In this document: one piece after another, positions 1,721 through 24,541 of the stretch
Position numbering within the stretch: the stretch's first letter is position 1
Layout: each line of letters starts with the position of its first letter
Virus record (IMG/VR): IMGVR_UViG_3300029787_000199
Coordinates: 1 to 32,482 of that record
From: a virus
Direction: 5' to 3' (one strand)
DNA: 32,482 bases
Position numbers and translations under genes: made by a program
Notes under the pieces: generated by a model
What the model saw: only the letters and a program-made list of their open reading frames with translations
The model's database searches: none
Told to the model about the DNA's origin: nothing

Positions 1721-1832
1721 AGTATTTTGGGTAGACCAACCATATGTGATGGACGTATATACGTATGTTCGCATTTATACTCTTCAATTAGGCTGGTATA
1801 TAGGTATGTTCAGCGAAAGCTTTATATACTAG
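1707..1832 (+). CDS. Possible 41-aa Tyr-rich small protein
   Basis: An ATG lies inside the end of the previous microprotein gene, and the frame stays open for 41 codons, rich in Tyr, Val and Trp. Its last codons (Ser-Phe-Ile-Tyr) are spelled by the TATA box of the next transcription unit. No clear Shine-Dalgarno and no family are seen. It could be a chance open frame; I list it because it would fill an otherwise empty gap in a dense genome. Confidence 0.35.
   Translation: MQTDEVFWVDQPYVMDVYTYVRIYTLQLGWYIGMFSESFIY
1811..1830 (+). promoter_or_regulatory. Archaeal promoter for the surface-protein unit
   Basis: CAGCGAAAGCTTTATATACT shares 18-19 bases with the boxes at 6474 and 21902. The TATA box begins 33 bases before the ATG at 1854, giving a very short leader. 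Confidence 0.8.
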
Positions 1833-4026: not shown

Positions 4027-4046
4027 CAACGAAACCTTTATATACT
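4027..4046 (+). promoter_or_regulatory. Archaeal promoter for the 4078 unit (terminase operon)
   Basis: CAACGAAACCTTTATATACT is the same BRE/TATA type as the box at 296. The ATG lies 41 bases after the TATA start, so the mRNA would have a short leader holding AGGTGA at about 4065, a ribosome site. Confidence 0.78.
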
Positions 4047-6473: not shown

Positions 6474-6493
6474 GAGCGAAAGCTTTATATACT
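6474..6493 (+). promoter_or_regulatory. Archaeal promoter for the portal/capsid unit
   Basis: GAGCGAAAGCTTTATATACT is identical to the box at 21902 over 20 bases. The TATA start lies about 37 bases before the portal ATG at 6521. It sits in the short gap after the terminase gene. Confidence 0.82.
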
Positions 6494-12434: not shown

Positions 12435-14906
12435 ATGGCAAATACAATACAATTAAGAAGAGGTACTTCGGATGTAGTAGTAAGCGGTGGTGGCGAAACG
12501 GCAGTAAACACAGGTGAACCTTTAGTTTACTTACCAAGCAGTGGCGACCAAAAATTATACATTGCAAAAAGTGGTACCGCAGGGGACGTAGTATGGATGG
12601 GTGCGCCTATCACTACAGACGGAACCTCAAGCTCAGCTACAAAGCTGATGACAGCAAGCGCAGTTCAAGCTGCTATAGATGCAGAAGACACTTTAGCAGA
12701 AATGGGAGATACGGACATAAGTTCGCTTTCCTCAGGACATATAATAGTATATGATGGTTCAGACTCATTTGACAACGTAGCAGTTTCTGGCGATGCAACA
12801 CTTGCAGCCAATGGTGCTTTAAGTATTGGTAATCAAAAAGTTACAAATACAATGCTTGCAGATGATGCTGTAGGAGCTGATGAATTAGCTGCAAACGCAG
12901 TTGTATCTGCTTCTATAGTAGATGGGACAATAGCTACAGGTGATATAGCTGATAATGCAATAACAGCTGCTAAGTTTAATATATCTGGTAATGGTACAAG
13001 CGGACAAATAATTCAAACTGATGGAGATGGTTCTTTCAGTTACACTAACGCTGCTTCAGCAAACGATTCAACAATTACACTTACAGCCGGAGACGGTTTG
13101 CAAACAGGTGGTAGTTTTACTACAAACGCGAGTGGCAATTCAGAAATAACTTTTAATTTTGATGCTAGTGATGTCGTTGCGGCAAACAGTGGAATGGCAG
13201 CTAACGGAGAAAATTTAGAAGTAGATATAAATAATTTGACAGCAGCTACACTTGCATCTGGCGATTTCATCGCATTTTCGGATGAAGGTGAATCTGGTGA
13301 CCCTACCAGAAAAGAAAGTATAGATGATGTTGCAACATTATTTGCAGGAGATGGGTTAACTGCTTCGAGCGCAGTCCTCGCTGTAAATGTTGATGATTCT
13401 TCTATAGAAACAAATTCAGATGCAATTAGAGTCAAAGCAAGTGGTGTTACTAACGCTATGTTAGCTGGTTCGATTGCTATATCTAAACTAGCTTCTGATG
13501 ATGTTACAATCGCAGCAGATTCAGGAACTGCTCATGCTATTGATTTAGGTGAGACTTTGACTGTTAGCGGAACTTCAAACGAAGTAGAAACATCTATCAG
13601 TAACAATACATTAACAATCGGTTTACCAAACAACGTTACAATCGGTGGTAATTTAACAGTTTCAGGAACTACAACCACAGTTGCTTCAACAACTGTAGCT
13701 ATTGCAGATTCTATGTTGAAACTGGCAAAAGACCAAGGAAGCAGTGCTGACGACCTTGATTTTGGTGTATATGGACAGTATGGTACTGGTGGAACAGCAA
13801 AATATGCAGGTATTTTCAGAGATGTAAGTGCTACAGGTAATGCTTTTACTTTCTTCGATGAATTACAAGCAGAACCCGGCACAACTGTTAACACAAGTGG
13901 AACTGGATATGCATTAGCACCTATAATAGCTGGTGAAATCACAGGTACATTACAAACAGCTGCACAGACAAACATAACATCTGTAGGTGCATTAGGTGGA
14001 GGTTCTATTTCATCAGGATTCGGAAACATTGATAATGGTTCAAGTACAATCACAACTACAGGACTTATTAGTGGTGGTTCATTAGATATAGATAATGTTC
14101 TTATCAACGGAACTACTATCGGACATACCGATGATACAGACTTGATGACTGTAGCAAATGGTTTACTTACTGTCGCAGGAGAAATCAGTGTAACTACTTT
14201 GGATATAGGTGGAACAAATGTTACATCTACAGCAGCAGAACTTAACATCCTAGATGGTGTAACGTCCACAGCAACAGAACTTAACATCATGGATGGTGAT
14301 ACATCAGCCAGTTCAACAACTGTTGCAGATGCTGATAGAGTAGTATTCAATGATAATGGAACTATGAAACAAGTTGCAGTTACAGATTTAGCAGCATATT
14401 TCGATGACGAAATTACTGCAATGCCAAATCTTGTTCAATCAGGAGCTTTAAACGCTGGTACTATTACATCAGGATTCGGAAACATTAATAATGGTTCATC
14501 AACTATTACAACCACGGGATTAATTAGCGGTGGTTCATTAGATATAGACAACGTTCTTATTAACGGAACTACCATTGGACACACAGATGATACAGACTTA
14601 ATGACTGTAGCAGACGGTTTACTTACTGTTGCAGGTGAAATATCTGTAACTACTTTAGACATAGGTGGGGTAAATGTTTCATCTACAGCTGCAGAACTTA
14701 ACATCTTAGATGGAGTAACTTCTACCGCAACAGAACTTAACATCATGGATGGTGATACATCCGCAACTTCCACAACATTAGCTAGTGCTGATAGAATGGT
14801 TATGAACGATGCCGGCACTATGAAGCAAGTAGCATTATCTGACCTTGTAACTTACTTGGAAAATGGTAGTACATCTGGCTTTAACATTGATGGTGGAGCA
14901 ATATAA
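12435..14906 (+). CDS. Long fibre protein with Mtd-N-like start and internal duplication
   Basis: This 823-aa fibre starts M-A-N-T-I-Q-L-R-R-G-T with later G-E-P-L-V-Y and L-Y-I-A-K, as in the N-terminal attachment domain of the major tropism determinant family. A collagen-like region of A-D-x-A-V-x-x-x-E-L and D-N-A-I-T-A-A-K-F units spans about 125-185. A roughly 130-aa unit (S-G-F-G-N-I ... T-M-K-Q-V-A) occurs twice, at about 526-657 and 678-808, near-identical in protein but with many silent differences. The elements A-E-L-N-I-L-D-G-V-T and T-E-L-N-I-M-D-G-D-T occur in both units. Predicted trimeric beta fibre, probably a host-contact appendage. A 92-base stretch (13066-13157) is identical to the next fibre gene. 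Confidence 0.8.
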   Translation: MANTIQLRRGTSDVVVSGGGETAVNTGEPLVYLPSSGDQKLYIAKSGTAGDVVWMGAPITTDGTSSSATKLMTASAVQAAIDAEDTLAEMGDTDISSLSSGHIIVYDGSDSFDNVAVSGDATLAANGALSIGNQKVTNTMLADDAVGADELAANAVVSASIVDGTIATGDIADNAITAAKFNISGNGTSGQIIQTDGDGSFSYTNAASANDSTITLTAGDGLQTGGSFTTNASGNSEITFNFDASDVVAANSGMAANGENLEVDINNLTAATLASGDFIAFSDEGESGDPTRKESIDDVATLFAGDGLTASSAVLAVNVDDSSIETNSDAIRVKASGVTNAMLAGSIAISKLASDDVTIAADSGTAHAIDLGETLTVSGTSNEVETSISNNTLTIGLPNNVTIGGNLTVSGTTTTVASTTVAIADSMLKLAKDQGSSADDLDFGVYGQYGTGGTAKYAGIFRDVSATGNAFTFFDELQAEPGTTVNTSGTGYALAPIIAGEITGTLQTAAQTNITSVGALGGGSISSGFGNIDNGSSTITTTGLISGGSLDIDNVLINGTTIGHTDDTDLMTVANGLLTVAGEISVTTLDIGGTNVTSTAAELNILDGVTSTATELNIMDGDTSASSTTVADADRVVFNDNGTMKQVAVTDLAAYFDDEITAMPNLVQSGALNAGTITSGFGNINNGSSTITTTGLISGGSLDIDNVLINGTTIGHTDDTDLMTVADGLLTVAGEISVTTLDIGGVNVSSTAAELNILDGVTSTATELNIMDGDTSATSTTLASADRMVMNDAGTMKQVALSDLVTYLENGSTSGFNIDGGAI
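13066..13157 (+). repeat. 92-base direct repeat, copy 1
   Basis: These 92 bases, coding for part of the fibre shaft, are identical to 15498-15589 in the neighbouring fibre gene while flanking sequence differs. Perfect identity including third codon positions suggests recent gene conversion or duplication. Confidence 0.9.
14011..14860 (+). repeat. Tandem coding duplication in the fibre gene
   Basis: Two units beginning at about 14011 and 14467 (offset 456 bases, 152 codons) encode almost the same 130 residues. Nucleotides differ mainly at silent positions, so the duplication is older than the 92-base repeat. Confidence 0.85.
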
Positions 14907-14925
14907 GCACAATAACACAGTAAAC

Positions 14926-14932
14926 TTTAAAT
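14926..14932 (+). promoter_or_regulatory. Possible TATA box of a second type (TTTAAAT)
   Basis: AAACTTTAAATAG lies 43-49 bases before the ATG at 14975 and matches the element at 10596. It has no GCGAAA block. The left arm of the next hairpin overlaps its last two bases. Confidence 0.4.
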
Positions 14933-14963
14933 AGTGCCTGAGCTATAGCTGTGATGGCACTAT
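14931..14963 (+). promoter_or_regulatory. Hairpin/inverted repeat ahead of the second long fibre gene
   Basis: ATAGTGCC (14931-14938) and GGCACTAT (14956-14963) make a perfect 8-bp stem. The 17-base loop contains the palindrome AGCTATAGCT (14941-14950). AAGGAGA (14964-14970) follows directly and serves the ATG at 14975. If the TTTAAAT box is active the left arm would lie upstream of the start site, so a DNA operator or a structure in read-through mRNA are both possible. Confidence 0.6.
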
Positions 14964-14974
14964 AAGGAGACATT

Positions 14975-17062
14975 ATGACAAACACAATCCAACTTAAAAG
15001 AAAGACCACAGCTGGTCAAAGCCCCCCTAGTACCCTAGCAGTAGGTGAATTAGTTATAAACACGGGAGACGGTTTAATTTTTTACGGAGATTCGAGTGGA
15101 GATAGAGCTAGTTTATCTGATACATACTCTGTAAAAGCAGGTAACACTTCTCTTACAACAACAGGAACAGTTAGTAATGGTACATGGAATAGTTCTTTTG
15201 GAAGTAGCGCCTATGCTAGTACATCTGCTAAAGGTGTTGCTAGTTTTAATAGTGATAATTTTGCTGTATCAAGTGGAGTAGTAACTATCAAAGATGGTGG
15301 TGTTGTTACCGCAGAAATTGCCGATAACGCAGTCACTTTGGCTAAAATGGCAAGTGGTACTGATGGAACTATAATTACATTTGATGCATCTGGTAATCCA
15401 GTTGCAGTAGGACCGGGTAGTGATGGTCAAGTATTAACTTCTACAGGAGCAGGTTCACCTCCAGCTTTTGAAGACGCTACTGGTGGAAGTGCAAACAATT
15501 CAACAATTACACTTACAGCCGGAGACGGTTTGCAAACAGGTGGTAGTTTTACTACAAACGCGAGTGGCAATTCAGAAATAACTTTTAATATAGATGTTAG
15601 TGATTTTGCTGGTGCTGGATTAGCAGATGGAGGTTCAGAAAATCTTGCTATAGATATATCTGAATATTCAGCAGTAACACCTACATCAGGAGATTCATTC
15701 CTTACATTAGATTCAAATGGTTCTACTGAACAACTTACTACAGTTGATGCTTTAGCAACTCTTCTTGCAGGAACTAACATTTCTGCATCGAGTGGAGTAC
15801 TTTCAGTAGGAACATTAAATCAAAATACTACAGGTAGCGCAGCTACTTTAACAACAGCTAGGGCAATAGGTGGTGTAAACTTTGATGGTTCTGCTGCTAT
15901 TAATTTACCCGGTGTAAATACAGGTGGTAATCAAGACACAAGTGGAACAGCTGCAATAGCAACTACAGTTACTGTAGCAGATGAATCAAGTGACACATCT
16001 TGTTTCCCATTATTTTCAACAGCAGCGTCAGGAAATCTAGCACCCAAGTCTGGTAGTAACTTAACATTTAATTCTAACACAGGGACTTTAGCTGCTACTG
16101 ACTTCAGTGGTAAATTGACTATAGGTGGACACACGGTTGATGACATTGATATAACTAGTGAGTTTGTAGATAGTGATGAACATTTGATGTCAGCGAAAGC
16201 TATCAATGCCAGAATACAAGATTTTTTCGTTGATGAAAACAATATGGCTTCTGACTCGGCCAGTTTAGTGCCAACACAACAATCTGTAAAGGCTTATGTT
16301 GATACTGAAGTAGCAGGAGCAGGTGGAGGAACTGGTAATATTTCATTCTCTGATACAACTATGGCTGGTAATGCTATGACTTTAGATTCTGCTGGTGAAA
16401 TAGCTTTGGATGCTGATGATAACGGTGAAGTTAAATTCTTTGATGGTGGTGCTCATTATGCTACAATGCAGAAAAATTCAACTCAAGGTTTGAAACTTAC
16501 AGCAGGAAGTGAGAGTAAAGTAATTTTAACAACAGAAGATACGGGAATCTTGGCGACTACTGGACACCAATGGATACAAGCACACCACTTTGGTATTTCC
16601 AACTTAGATAATAATACACCGGTTTTTTTAAGCTGGGCATCTTCTAATAGTAACCAAAGTGACATTGCTAACCACAGACCTCTTATGCCTTGTGCAGGTA
16701 GAATTTTAAAATGTTTAATTACATGTCAAAATAGTAACAGTAATGCACTAGCAACAATGACTAACGGTAGTAATGATTTTGAGATGGAATTGTCAGGAAG
16801 TTCAACATTTTCAGATGTAGGTCACGGTGCAGGTATTCAAAAAATCGGAGACCCCGGTAGAATATTCGAAAACACAAGTAATTATCCGGTTGACCTTTCA
16901 CCACTTCAAACTGCAGTGGACAATGGTTCAGCTGGAATTGACGCAACATTACTGGGTTATACATGGGCTGCTGGAGATACTATAGTAGGAAAGATAAAAA
17001 ATCACAGTGGTAATAGTAACCAAAGAGCATCCATGACGATGTTAGTAGAATGGACGGTATAG
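14975..17062 (+). CDS. Fibre protein with Mtd-N-like start
   Basis: This 695-aa fibre begins M-T-N-T-I-Q-L-K-R-K-T with G-E-L-V-I-N-T-G-D-G-L-I-F-Y, the same attachment-type N-terminus as the previous fibre. A Ser/Thr/Gly-rich beta shaft follows, with an A-E-I-A-D-N-A-V-T-L-A-K-M unit near residue 107 and the 92-base shared block near 175-205. The last 170 residues (from about G-H-Q-W-I-Q-A-H-H-F-G) are a distinct, compact domain unlike the shaft and may be the receptor-binding tip. It ends six bases before a 33-aa gene. Placement before the connector genes favours a head fibre or a tail fibre whose gene has moved. Confidence 0.78.
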   Translation: MTNTIQLKRKTTAGQSPPSTLAVGELVINTGDGLIFYGDSSGDRASLSDTYSVKAGNTSLTTTGTVSNGTWNSSFGSSAYASTSAKGVASFNSDNFAVSSGVVTIKDGGVVTAEIADNAVTLAKMASGTDGTIITFDASGNPVAVGPGSDGQVLTSTGAGSPPAFEDATGGSANNSTITLTAGDGLQTGGSFTTNASGNSEITFNIDVSDFAGAGLADGGSENLAIDISEYSAVTPTSGDSFLTLDSNGSTEQLTTVDALATLLAGTNISASSGVLSVGTLNQNTTGSAATLTTARAIGGVNFDGSAAINLPGVNTGGNQDTSGTAAIATTVTVADESSDTSCFPLFSTAASGNLAPKSGSNLTFNSNTGTLAATDFSGKLTIGGHTVDDIDITSEFVDSDEHLMSAKAINARIQDFFVDENNMASDSASLVPTQQSVKAYVDTEVAGAGGGTGNISFSDTTMAGNAMTLDSAGEIALDADDNGEVKFFDGGAHYATMQKNSTQGLKLTAGSESKVILTTEDTGILATTGHQWIQAHHFGISNLDNNTPVFLSWASSNSNQSDIANHRPLMPCAGRILKCLITCQNSNSNALATMTNGSNDFEMELSGSSTFSDVGHGAGIQKIGDPGRIFENTSNYPVDLSPLQTAVDNGSAGIDATLLGYTWAAGDTIVGKIKNHSGNSNQRASMTMLVEWTV
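15498..15589 (+). repeat. 92-base direct repeat, copy 2
   Basis: Identical to 13066-13157; see that entry. The match ends sharply on both sides. Confidence 0.9.
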
Positions 17063-21901: not shown

Positions 21902-21921
21902 GAGCGAAAGCTTTATATACT
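21902..21921 (+). promoter_or_regulatory. Archaeal promoter for the tail unit
   Basis: GAGCGAAAGCTTTATATACT is identical to the portal promoter at 6474. The ATG at 21979 is about 67 bases from the TATA start, so this mRNA has a longer leader than the others, and the leader begins with a hairpin. Confidence 0.82.
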
Positions 21922-21978: not shown

Positions 21979-22587
21979 ATGGCATATTTCCTAGGAAGAG
22001 ATGTAAAGGTTGCAATCACAACTGAGCACGATGGTACAGAAGACGCAGGAACTTCAAGCGACCATGGAATCAACAGTTCCATAGCCGCAGCTACAAGTTC
22101 ATTAGTTATACCAGCACGTGAAGTATCGACGTTGTTCGATTCAGGTGAAGCAGCAAACCCAGTACAAGATGTTATAAGTGTAGACCTCACACTCGGCGCA
22201 GTCGATGAGGACATCGCTTATATGGGACAGAGAACTGCATTAAAAGCAGAGATTAAAAAAGAGAATACAATAACCATCACCAAGAAAAAAGATGGTAGAT
22301 TCTTCGATGACTTGTTCAAAGCAGCAAGATATGGATTAATGAAAAGGGATGGAGACACACCTACTATCAACGATGGTTTAACACAACCAGATAATGTTTA
22401 TGGGTACAGACTCCACGTTCAATTAATGTTATCCGGCGAAGTTATTTCTTTCCCAATGTGTTCAATGACAGAATTTAATGTTACATTGAATGCTGACGGA
22501 GTTCAAGAAGAGTCACTGACCTTTATGGGTCACGCAACACCAGTTATCGCAGCAACAGGCAACCAAGCAGTTTGCTCTACTGTGTGA
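21979..22587 (+). CDS. Major tail protein (tail tube), paralogue 1
   Basis: This 202-aa protein begins M-A-Y-F-L-G-R-D-V-K-V and carries V-D-E-D-I-A-Y-M-G-Q-R-T-A-L-K-A-E-I-K-K-E, then T-I-T-K-K-K-D and L-T-F-M-G-H-A at the end: a compact beta-barrel layout typical of tail-tube subunits. Its own promoter, leader hairpin and strong AAGGAGA site fit a high-copy protein. The next gene is a longer paralogue with the same blocks. No sheath gene is seen, so a siphovirus-like tail is likely. Confidence 0.72.
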   Translation: MAYFLGRDVKVAITTEHDGTEDAGTSSDHGINSSIAAATSSLVIPAREVSTLFDSGEAANPVQDVISVDLTLGAVDEDIAYMGQRTALKAEIKKENTITITKKKDGRFFDDLFKAARYGLMKRDGDTPTINDGLTQPDNVYGYRLHVQLMLSGEVISFPMCSMTEFNVTLNADGVQEESLTFMGHATPVIAATGNQAVCSTV

Positions 22588-22595
22588 GGTGATTT

Positions 22596-23678
22596 GTGAC
22601 TTACTTCCTTGGTAGAGATATTAAAGTAGGTCTGTCTACTGAACAGGCTAACTATGGTATCAAATTCGCAAGCGGAGCTATAACTATATCTAACACTAGT
22701 TCTACGACTGGAGATTTGGGTGGAGCTTATGCTGACCCTGATTTTATTCCACGAAGAACTGGTGTAGCAGAAGTATCAACTATTACTGTAGTATCTACTA
22801 ACAAAGCACAATTTGCATCGACAACAAGTAATAATAAATATGTTTTAATTTATGATGCAGATGGGCAAAAGTATTTAGTATGGTTTGACCATGATGGTAA
22901 TGGAACACAACCGGCAAGTATAGATGAAGATTTTCAACAAGAAATTGATTTATCAGCAATTAGTAGTGGTAACGCTTCTAACATAGCAGGAGCAATCAAA
23001 ACTCAATTAGCTGCTGATAGTGATTTTGCAGCAGCTTTCACTATTACTCAATCTGGTGCTGTAGTTACAATTACAGATAAAGACACTGGTGCAGCAACTG
23101 ATATAGCCAGAGGGTCTGGTTTTGCTGACAGTGATATGACTGTTGCTACAACTACAGAAGGTACAGGTGGAGACGCTAGTGTAGGCATAGTTTCTGACGA
23201 ATTGAAAATAGAAGATATTACAGGAGTAGATTTCACATTCGGAACTGTTGATGAAGATATAGCATATATGGGTCAACGAACTGCTTTGAAGGCAGAAATC
23301 AAGAAAGAAATAACCCTAACAATAACTAAGAAAAAGAAGGACAATTCTTTTTCAAATCTTTTCAACAAAGCACGATGTGGTATAAGAGCAACTAGTGGTG
23401 CCACAGCTCTAGCAGGTGGTACAGATACTGTAGCTTTTGACAACAATTTAAATCAACCTATAGCAGATGCAAGTGGCAGTGCTTTTGGATATAGATTATA
23501 TCTGGCATTGAAAGAAGGTTCGGAAGTGATGACTTTACCTAATATGTGTATTACAGAATACGGTGTTACTTTGAATGCAGATGCAGTGCACGAAGAAACA
23601 ATAACTTTTTATGGTAATGTTGCACCAGTTGTAGGAACTACAATGGATTACACCACAACCGGAAGCACAGCATTCTGA
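22596..23678 (+). CDS. Second tail-tube paralogue with inserted domain (GTG start)
   Basis: This 360-aa protein starts at GTG eight bases after the previous stop, behind GAGGTGAT. Its ends match the first tail protein (Y-F-L-G-R-D-I-K-V; V-D-E-D-I-A-Y-M-G-Q-R-T-A-L-K-A-E-I-K-K-E). About 140 residues (55-195) are inserted, containing Y-V-L-I-Y-D-A-D-G-Q-K-Y-L-V-W-F-D and V-V-T-I-T-D-K-D-T-G, a domain common in marine phage structural proteins. It could form a decorated tube, a tube end piece, or mix with the short form as lambda gpV carries an extra domain. Shared blocks show an in-place duplication. Confidence 0.7.
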   Translation: MTYFLGRDIKVGLSTEQANYGIKFASGAITISNTSSTTGDLGGAYADPDFIPRRTGVAEVSTITVVSTNKAQFASTTSNNKYVLIYDADGQKYLVWFDHDGNGTQPASIDEDFQQEIDLSAISSGNASNIAGAIKTQLAADSDFAAAFTITQSGAVVTITDKDTGAATDIARGSGFADSDMTVATTTEGTGGDASVGIVSDELKIEDITGVDFTFGTVDEDIAYMGQRTALKAEIKKEITLTITKKKKDNSFSNLFNKARCGIRATSGATALAGGTDTVAFDNNLNQPIADASGSAFGYRLYLALKEGSEVMTLPNMCITEYGVTLNADAVHEETITFYGNVAPVVGTTMDYTTTGSTAF

Positions 23679-23687
23679 GGTAAATAA

Positions 23688-23867
23688 ATGGTATATGAAG
23701 TTAAGGAAATCAATCACGTCTTTCAACTATCGAAAGGTAACGAGATTGTAGGAGTCTTCAGAAGCGAAGCAGCTCTGAATGACGCACTTAAGAGACTGGA
23801 GGCAGAAGAAAAAGTATCTGCCCCAGTCAAAAAGCCTAAAAATAAAAAGAAGGCTAAAAAGAAATAG
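23688..23867 (+). CDS. 59-aa protein with Lys-rich tail
   Basis: The 59 residues hold a beta-beta-alpha core (V-F-Q-L-S-K-G-N-E-I-V-G-V-F and A-A-L-N-D-A-L-K-R-L-E-A-E) and a lysine tail (K-K-P-K-N-K-K-K-A-K-K-K). It sits between tail-tube and chaperone genes with AGGTAAATAA upstream. No family is known. Confidence 0.6.
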   Translation: MVYEVKEINHVFQLSKGNEIVGVFRSEAALNDALKRLEAEEKVSAPVKKPKNKKKAKKK

Positions 23868-23876
23868 GAAACAACA

Positions 23877-24230
23877 ATGGAAGAAGAGAAACAGTACTGG
23901 ACTGTTGAGGACCTTGAGTCTTTAACAGATACAGTCCAAGAAGCAGAAGTAAAGTATCAGGAAAAATACATCAAGATATCTTGGTGTGAATTGACAGAGA
24001 GTGAAGAACCAAAGGCAATTGTCGTAGACGATTCTCTTTCTGAGGAAGAAAAGAACGAGCAATATCTAGAATTAGCTAAAGAGAGAATAGGGCTTATGAT
24101 GAAAAAAGCTCAGGATAAAAAGCCTGACCTAAGCGTATTATCTATGGATGTTTATGAAAAATTACCATCCTCAGCTAAATTTATTGTAACTAATAAAATG
24201 CTAGGTATAGACGACCCAAACGTACAATAG
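23877..24230 (+). CDS. Tail assembly chaperone, G-type
   Basis: This 117-aa acidic helical protein lies just before the tape measure, the place of gpG-type chaperones. It has an acidic N-terminus, a beta-like K-Y-I-K-I-S-W-C-E-L and long helices (about 60-82 and 88-108). Three codons before its stop is CCCAAAC (24215-24221) in the right frame for a -1 shift (C CCA AAC); the -1 frame is open from 24197 through 24541. Most ribosomes would make 117 aa; a fraction would continue. The chaperone coats the tape measure while the tube is built. Confidence 0.75.
   Translation: MEEEKQYWTVEDLESLTDTVQEAEVKYQEKYIKISWCELTESEEPKAIVVDDSLSEEEKNEQYLELAKERIGLMMKKAQDKKPDLSVLSMDVYEKLPSSAKFIVTNKMLGIDDPNVQ
24215..24221 (+). 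other. -1 ribosomal slippery site CCCAAAC
   Basis: The heptamer fits X-XXY-YYZ in the frame of the upstream gene (Pro CCA, Asn AAC). A -1 slip leads into the open frame with the second chaperone. Only a weak hairpin (GTCA/TGAC around ACACCC, 24237-24250) is visible downstream. Confidence 0.75.
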
Positions 24231-24541
24231 CGTTCGGTCAACACCCTGACGTGGTTTTGGTTTACATGCCACTGATGAAAGAGTTAGGGATGAGTCTTAA
24301 AGAAATCAAGGCAACTCCTAGATATGAACTGGACGGATTGTTATACGCCTTTAATGTATACAAAACAATACACGCATACGACGGTTATACCGAAGAAGAT
24401 ATACAACAAATGTCAAAAGGTAGACCTGAAGTAAGAGCTGCATACAATAAAAGTGTAAACATGAAACGAAAATATGAAAGATTATCTGGATTAACAAAAC
24501 CTCACCAAAAAGGTAAATCTTTTAAAGATTTACTAATTTAA
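24221..24541 (+). CDS. Tail assembly chaperone T-part, made by -1 frameshift
   Basis: This frame adds 106 residues to the first 115 of the upstream protein, giving a fusion of about 221 aa. It continues after Asp-Asp-Pro-Asn as R-T-I-A-F-G-Q-H-P-D-V-V-L-V-Y-M, then two helices, a D-G-Y-T-E-E-D-I turn and a basic end. No ATG with a ribosome site begins this frame; a GTG at 24251 and an ATG at 24266 lack one, which supports frameshifting. In lambda, the matching GT fusion binds both tape measure and tube protein. Confidence 0.72.
   Translation, partial: RTIAFGQHPDVVLVYMPLMKELGMSLKEIKATPRYELDGLLYAFNVYKTIHAYDGYTEEDIQQMSKGRPEVRAAYNKSVNMKRKYERLSGLTKPHQKGKSFKDLLI

Follow-up and report, generated by a model that had tools for sequence, protein, structure and literature searches.

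Two small reading frames overlap ahead of a tape-measure gene in a viral genome recovered from a metagenome assembly, which raises the question of whether both are read from one start by ribosomal frameshifting, and whether archaeal ribosomes would perform the shift. The window, i.e. the whole stretch of DNA that was analysed, comprises positions 1 to 32,482 of IMG/VR record IMGVR_UViG_3300029787_000199 on one strand. Our analysis indicates that this tailed virus with archaeal-type promoters very probably uses a programmed -1 ribosomal frameshift to produce a pair of tail-assembly chaperones from a single start.

Gene setting and the predicted chaperone proteins

The terminase, portal and capsid genes precede the tail genes in the usual order, and the tail region continues from the probable tail-tube gene through the G-like and T-like frames to the tape-measure gene (Table 1), which is the standard location of G/GT chaperones. 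The probable tail-tube ORF is a tandem paralogue of the preceding ORF 21979-22587, to which it is 48% identical over about 130 residues, and carries an inserted domain. The proposal of a sequence-only reading that a -1 shift joins two frames of the tail-chaperone type agrees with the Pfam and PHROG matches of the downstream tape-measure gene and with the -1 geometry that relatives keep.

The G-like protein is predicted to fold with a mean pLDDT of 88, and the T-like part is predicted to be all-helical (mean pLDDT 87). Neither G nor T matched a Pfam or PHROG family, the chaperones of HCTV-1 or the deposited phages, and comparison of their models by Foldseek and VIA-align returned weak matches only and no convincing relatives. 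G/GT tail-chaperone families are known to diverge beyond sequence detection.

Other genes of the window were noted in passing. ORF 23688-23867, located between the tail-tube gene and G, encodes 59 amino acids with a lysine-rich end and is kept in the near relative (L001:1058-1240). The large, fibre-like ORFs at 12435-17062 contain long direct repeats (300 nt at 84% and 121 nt at 94%), as if they were internally duplicated. A putative membrane protein with repeated GC-D--A-NY---A---GSC motifs is encoded at 1854-2951.

Table 1. Positions of the chaperone locus, its neighbours and promoter elements in the window
Feature	Position	Strand	Basis and remarks
Probable tail-tube protein	22596-23678	+	Position ahead of chaperones; paralogue of ORF 21979-22587; function inferred
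First (G-like) tail-chaperone ORF, zero frame, 117 aa	23877-24230	+	48-member protein alignment; predicted fold
Open -1 frame	24197-24541	+	T-like part 24221-24538 (106 aa), stop TAA 24539-24541; 54-member T alignment
Slippery heptamer C_CCA_AAC	24215-24221	+	Sequence; kept in nearest relative at L002:1578-1584; A_AAU_UUU there in most distant relatives
GTG, sole nearby own-start candidate of second frame	24251-24253	+	Judged unused; without ribosome site
Tape-measure gene, 910 aa	24554-27286	+	Pfam PhageMin_Tail 2.9e-27; phrog_1533 4.5e-32
Archaeal BRE/TATA element CGAAAGCTTTATATA of tail operon	21905-21919	+	Sequence match and spacing
Archaeal BRE/TATA element	1814-1828	+	26 nt ahead of start (1854 ATG) without Shine-Dalgarno site
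Further near-identical BRE/TATA elements	299-313, 4030-4044, 6477-6491

The slippery heptamer and the -1 frame

The sequence-only reading had placed CCCAAAC in register at the end of the first frame and had described the -1 frame as open across the overlap. Both statements are borne out by the codons of the G-like ORF, which run GAC GAC CCA AAC GTA CAA TAG and thus set the register as C_CCA_AAC, with two sense codons between the heptamer and the G stop. The -1 frame is open past this stop, and its product, read from 24197 to the TAA, includes ...PKRTIAFGQHPDVV.... Slippage at the heptamer would join 115 residues of the first frame to 106 residues of the second, giving a predicted fusion of 221 aa with the junction DPN/RTIAFGQHPD, i.e. 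DPN/RTIAFGQHPDVV.

Canonical heptamers in register occur at approximately 0.4% of the codons in the window's genes, and approximately 4% of simulated overlaps as long as the one observed contain any such heptamer. With this chance of occurrence, the heptamer alone is suggestive and is not a proof. The window's genes contain 43 canonical heptamers in register, and only from the one at 24215-24221 does the -1 frame continue for 40 codons or beyond the gene end. Downstream RNA structure did not exceed chance in a test of pseudoknot-free folds, with a fold z of 0.21 in the window and of about -0.4 to -1.9 at other loci. The slippage rate in the window may be low, which would fit a minor GT product.

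In the mechanism that we propose, most ribosomes would finish the first ORF and release the 117-aa G-like protein. A minority would pause while tRNA-Pro occupies CCA and tRNA-Asn occupies AAC, and both tRNAs would move back by one base to pair with CCC and AAA, in a simultaneous two-tRNA slippage at C_CCA_AAC. Ribosomes that have slipped would then continue in the -1 frame and produce the GT-like fusion. By analogy with lambda, many G and few GT would be expected to assemble on the 910-aa tape-measure protein, and the T part of GT would be expected to recruit the tail-tube protein.

Conservation of the -1 geometry in relatives

When viral contigs were scanned with the tape measure and with G as single proteins, and with a two-row tape-measure alignment, one relative only was retrieved. 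The family was opened by T alignments, which found 76 loci in IMG/VR, 55 of them non-redundant. In the nearest relative, IMGVR_UViG_3300030330_004258, G is 69% and T 56% identical, and CCCAAAC is kept.

In 54 of the 55 non-redundant loci the second frame lies at -1 relative to the first, and 42 of these 54 carry a canonical X_XXY_YYZ heptamer, located 0-3 sense codons from the G stop. AAATTTT accounts for 39 of the canonical sites, AAATTTG for one and CCCAAAC for two, the latter being those of the window and its nearest relative, to which these exact letters are confined. The remaining 12 loci have only a degenerate site at the same place (AAGUUUU, AGUUUUU or GGAUUUU). The U_UUU before the stop in the GGATTTT group would possibly suit P-site slippage ahead of a stop codon. 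No canonical heptamer is present in L090, L094, L096, L097 and L098, where G ends with GAU UUU immediately before UAG or UGA.

Canonical in-register heptamers occupy 42 of 378 codons in the last eight codons of G versus 22 of 6120 in its body (0.36%), which is an enrichment of about thirtyfold. As far as aligned sequences go, the relatives lift the heptamer far above chance, and the comparison settles this observation. The sequence-only reading had proposed to look for conservation of both the heptamer and the open -1 frame in related contigs, and had regarded loss of the heptamer with retention of both frames as evidence against a frameshift. The expectation for the geometry held, and that for the exact letters failed in the wider family; where CCCAAAC is lost, most loci have A_AAU_UUU and 12 of 54 a weaker, U_UUU-containing site, and the -1 geometry is kept.

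Exchange of slippery sites between lineages

In a G+T tree from which the junction columns were excluded, the two CCCAAAC loci fall within AAATTTT lineages (98/95 and 100/99 support), and the tree as a whole requires eight changes of site type. On this topology, one slippery heptamer was swapped for another at the same place in the window's lineage. Without selection for slippage, it would be difficult to account for one heptamer taking the place of another at a single fixed point.

The sole relative with the second frame at +1 is L022/L069, in which the zero frame reads UCU_UUU_CGU (L022:7620-8320, and the same place in L069 and L118). A search for a second copy of L022 found none. If the TTTT run (IMG/VR 3300030329_002466) were longer by one T, the usual -1 geometry and a typical stop overlap would return, so that an undercall is possible; the +1 geometry reflects either a change in the direction of the shift or a sequencing undercall.

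Promoters and gene content

Archaeal promoters, already claimed from the sequence alone, are present in the window by sequence match and spacing. In archaeal promoters, a BRE and TATA box lie about 25 nt ahead of the transcript start. The window has six copies of the element CGAAANCTTTATATA, which combines a BRE and a TATA box, when two mismatches at most are allowed, against 0.48 expected; five copies are exact, and four of these five stand 21-34 nt before an ORF start. Several of the starts preceded by CGAAANCTTTATATA are devoid of a Shine-Dalgarno site (1854 ATG and 6512 TTG), which suggests leaderless transcripts for the first genes of operons at such starts. Like elements precede starts in the relatives too, and sigma-70-like sites in the window are not above chance. 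It is from the promoters that we infer an archaeal host, and they support it.

Five large relatives encode a family-B DNA polymerase (PolB), a B12-type RNR, a Cas4/Dna2-like nuclease, a RecU-like resolvase and an ATP-dependent ligase, a gene content that does not decide the host. Rad51/RadA was not found in 39 records, which says little because many of these are fragments.

Alternative explanations

The second frame could be a separate gene that starts at GTG 24251 (or ATG 24266), either independently or by coupled reinitiation after the first stop. In line with this, the nearest relative has a GTG at the corresponding alignment position, and in many distant relatives a -1-frame ATG overlaps the G stop (TGATG or ATGA), where reinitiation may occur in addition. 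The sequence-only reading had seen no good start of the second frame itself, and this judgement stands. GTG 24251 is the first ATG, GTG or TTG in the -1 frame and lies 21 nt beyond the stop of the first ORF; its Shine-Dalgarno score of -2.9 is background (random-sequence mean about -2.7), whereas many other genes of the window score -7 or stronger, and because it has no ribosome site we judge it not to be used. Family-wide, a Shine-Dalgarno score of -5 kcal/mol or below is found at 4% of second-frame starts, 70% of G starts and 30% of tape-measure starts, and the first -1-frame ATG scores even weaker than random sequence, while G starts are strong. The window and L013, L086, L089, L096, L098 and L026 have no start at the G stop at all. 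Furthermore, the residues from the heptamer to the first start are conserved across the family (F, P and V columns of the T alignment). In the nearest relative a -1-frame TGA lies immediately upstream of CCCAAAC, so that these residues can be reached there only via slippage, and a -1-frame stop abuts the heptamer in 11 loci, which makes entry into the frame before it impossible except by slippage. A separate gene would also leave the heptamers unexplained, and we consider it improbable. For a single contig from a metagenome assembly, one might suspect that the split arose from a sequencing error or from the disruption of a single gene; this is refuted by the relatives, in which the same -1 geometry recurs at 54 of 55 non-redundant loci and both frames are conserved as proteins, and its probability is negligible. 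Transcriptional rather than ribosomal slippage could in principle make the fused product, and some relatives have a TTTT or TTTTT run. The window offers only the runs CCC and AAA, which are too short for known polymerase slippage, and the conserved feature is the codon register and not the run length, so that we give this explanation very little credence.

A further alternative accepts the programmed frameshift and assigns it to a bacterial host, in which case it would have no bearing on archaeal ribosomes. G/GT frameshifting is standard in bacterial phages, Shine-Dalgarno sites and the tape-measure homology are common to phages, and no host genome match was found in the genome contigs scanned with TerL and T. 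Against a bacterial host stand the repeated CGAAANCTTTATATA at archaeal distance before starts in the window and its relatives, some of these starts lacking a Shine-Dalgarno site, and the missing excess of sigma-70 sites. Moreover, the solved structures nearest in sequence to the PolB of a relative are archaeal PolBs, with mixed bacterial and haloarchaeal matches among phages, and the terminase matches comprise, besides bacterial phages, Halogranum tailed virus 1 and an Altiarchaeum virus. We therefore regard a bacterial host as rather unlikely, and prefer a programmed -1 frameshift in a virus that probably infects archaea.

Significance of the family

What appears to be new, judged from the database searches and the tree, is a G/GT family in archaeal-type viruses that has no database match and shows exchange of the slippery site from one lineage to another. 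More tentatively, and with considerable doubt, the family could have a generally exchangeable site, with A_AAU_UUU as the main form, C_CCA_AAC, U_UUU before the stop and the +1 site of L022 as further forms, and the fusion point fixed throughout. If this were true, slippage of archaeal ribosomes would be a common and evolvable device outside the haloarchaea.

Archaeal recoding comprises very few cases so far: a single gene has been tested, and the haloarchaeal viruses are known from their sequences. The about 55 loci with a fixed slip point provide a natural series of sites (A_AAU_UUU, C_CCA_AAC and weaker ones) for testing the tolerance of archaeal ribosomes. The A-site codons in the family are UUU and AAC and never AAG, a choice that resembles the eukaryotic rather than the E. 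coli pattern and that may be tied to archaeal tRNA modification.

Comparison with known systems

The sequence-only reading had called the site a direct sign of archaeal -1 slippage. This is too strong, because the slippage is deduced from sequence, the host from promoters, and earlier cases are on record. Archaeal ribosomes perform -1 slippage in vitro, at about 10%, on Saccharolobus fucA1 (PMC8211752), which differs from the window in being a cellular enzyme gene with the site A_AAA_AAT and no virus. Frameshifting of the -1 G/GT type has already been recorded for HVTV-1 and HCTV-1, -2 and -5 (2016 review PMC5009743; 2021 review PMC8211752). Together with fucA1, these reports mean that the window is not the first sign of -1 slippage in archaea.

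In the halovirus Hardycor1, the first chaperone gene of HrrHc1_110/115 ends with a classical -1 heptamer, G_GGA_AAT (PMC7911831), as in the window, although the site differs. For the HF1-group haloviruses a +1 shift at UUU_CGC has been proposed (PMC7230728); this motif is the closest parallel to UCU_UUU_CGU of L022/L069 and does not represent the window's mechanism.

The haloarchaeal siphoviruses HCTV-1, -2, -5 and HVTV-1 (Druskaviridae and kin) resemble the window in that their chaperone gene has two frames and is located between the tail-tube position and the tape measure. In the HCTV-1 record the chaperone CDS is annotated as joined, with GGGAAAC at the junction (L120:23351-23357). HCTV-1 thus shares a -1 X_XXY_YYZ site with the window, but its heptamer is G_GGA_AAC, its chaperone and tape measure are separated by two further ORFs, the chaperones have no sequence relation, and the window's virus is AT-rich with a host from another group.

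In lambda, gpG/gpGT are made in a bacterial host by a low-level -1 fusion at G_GGA_AAG, and T has no start of its own. Although site and host differ and the proteins are not detectably related, the window shares with lambda the gene order, a T without its own start and an expected low-level -1 fusion.
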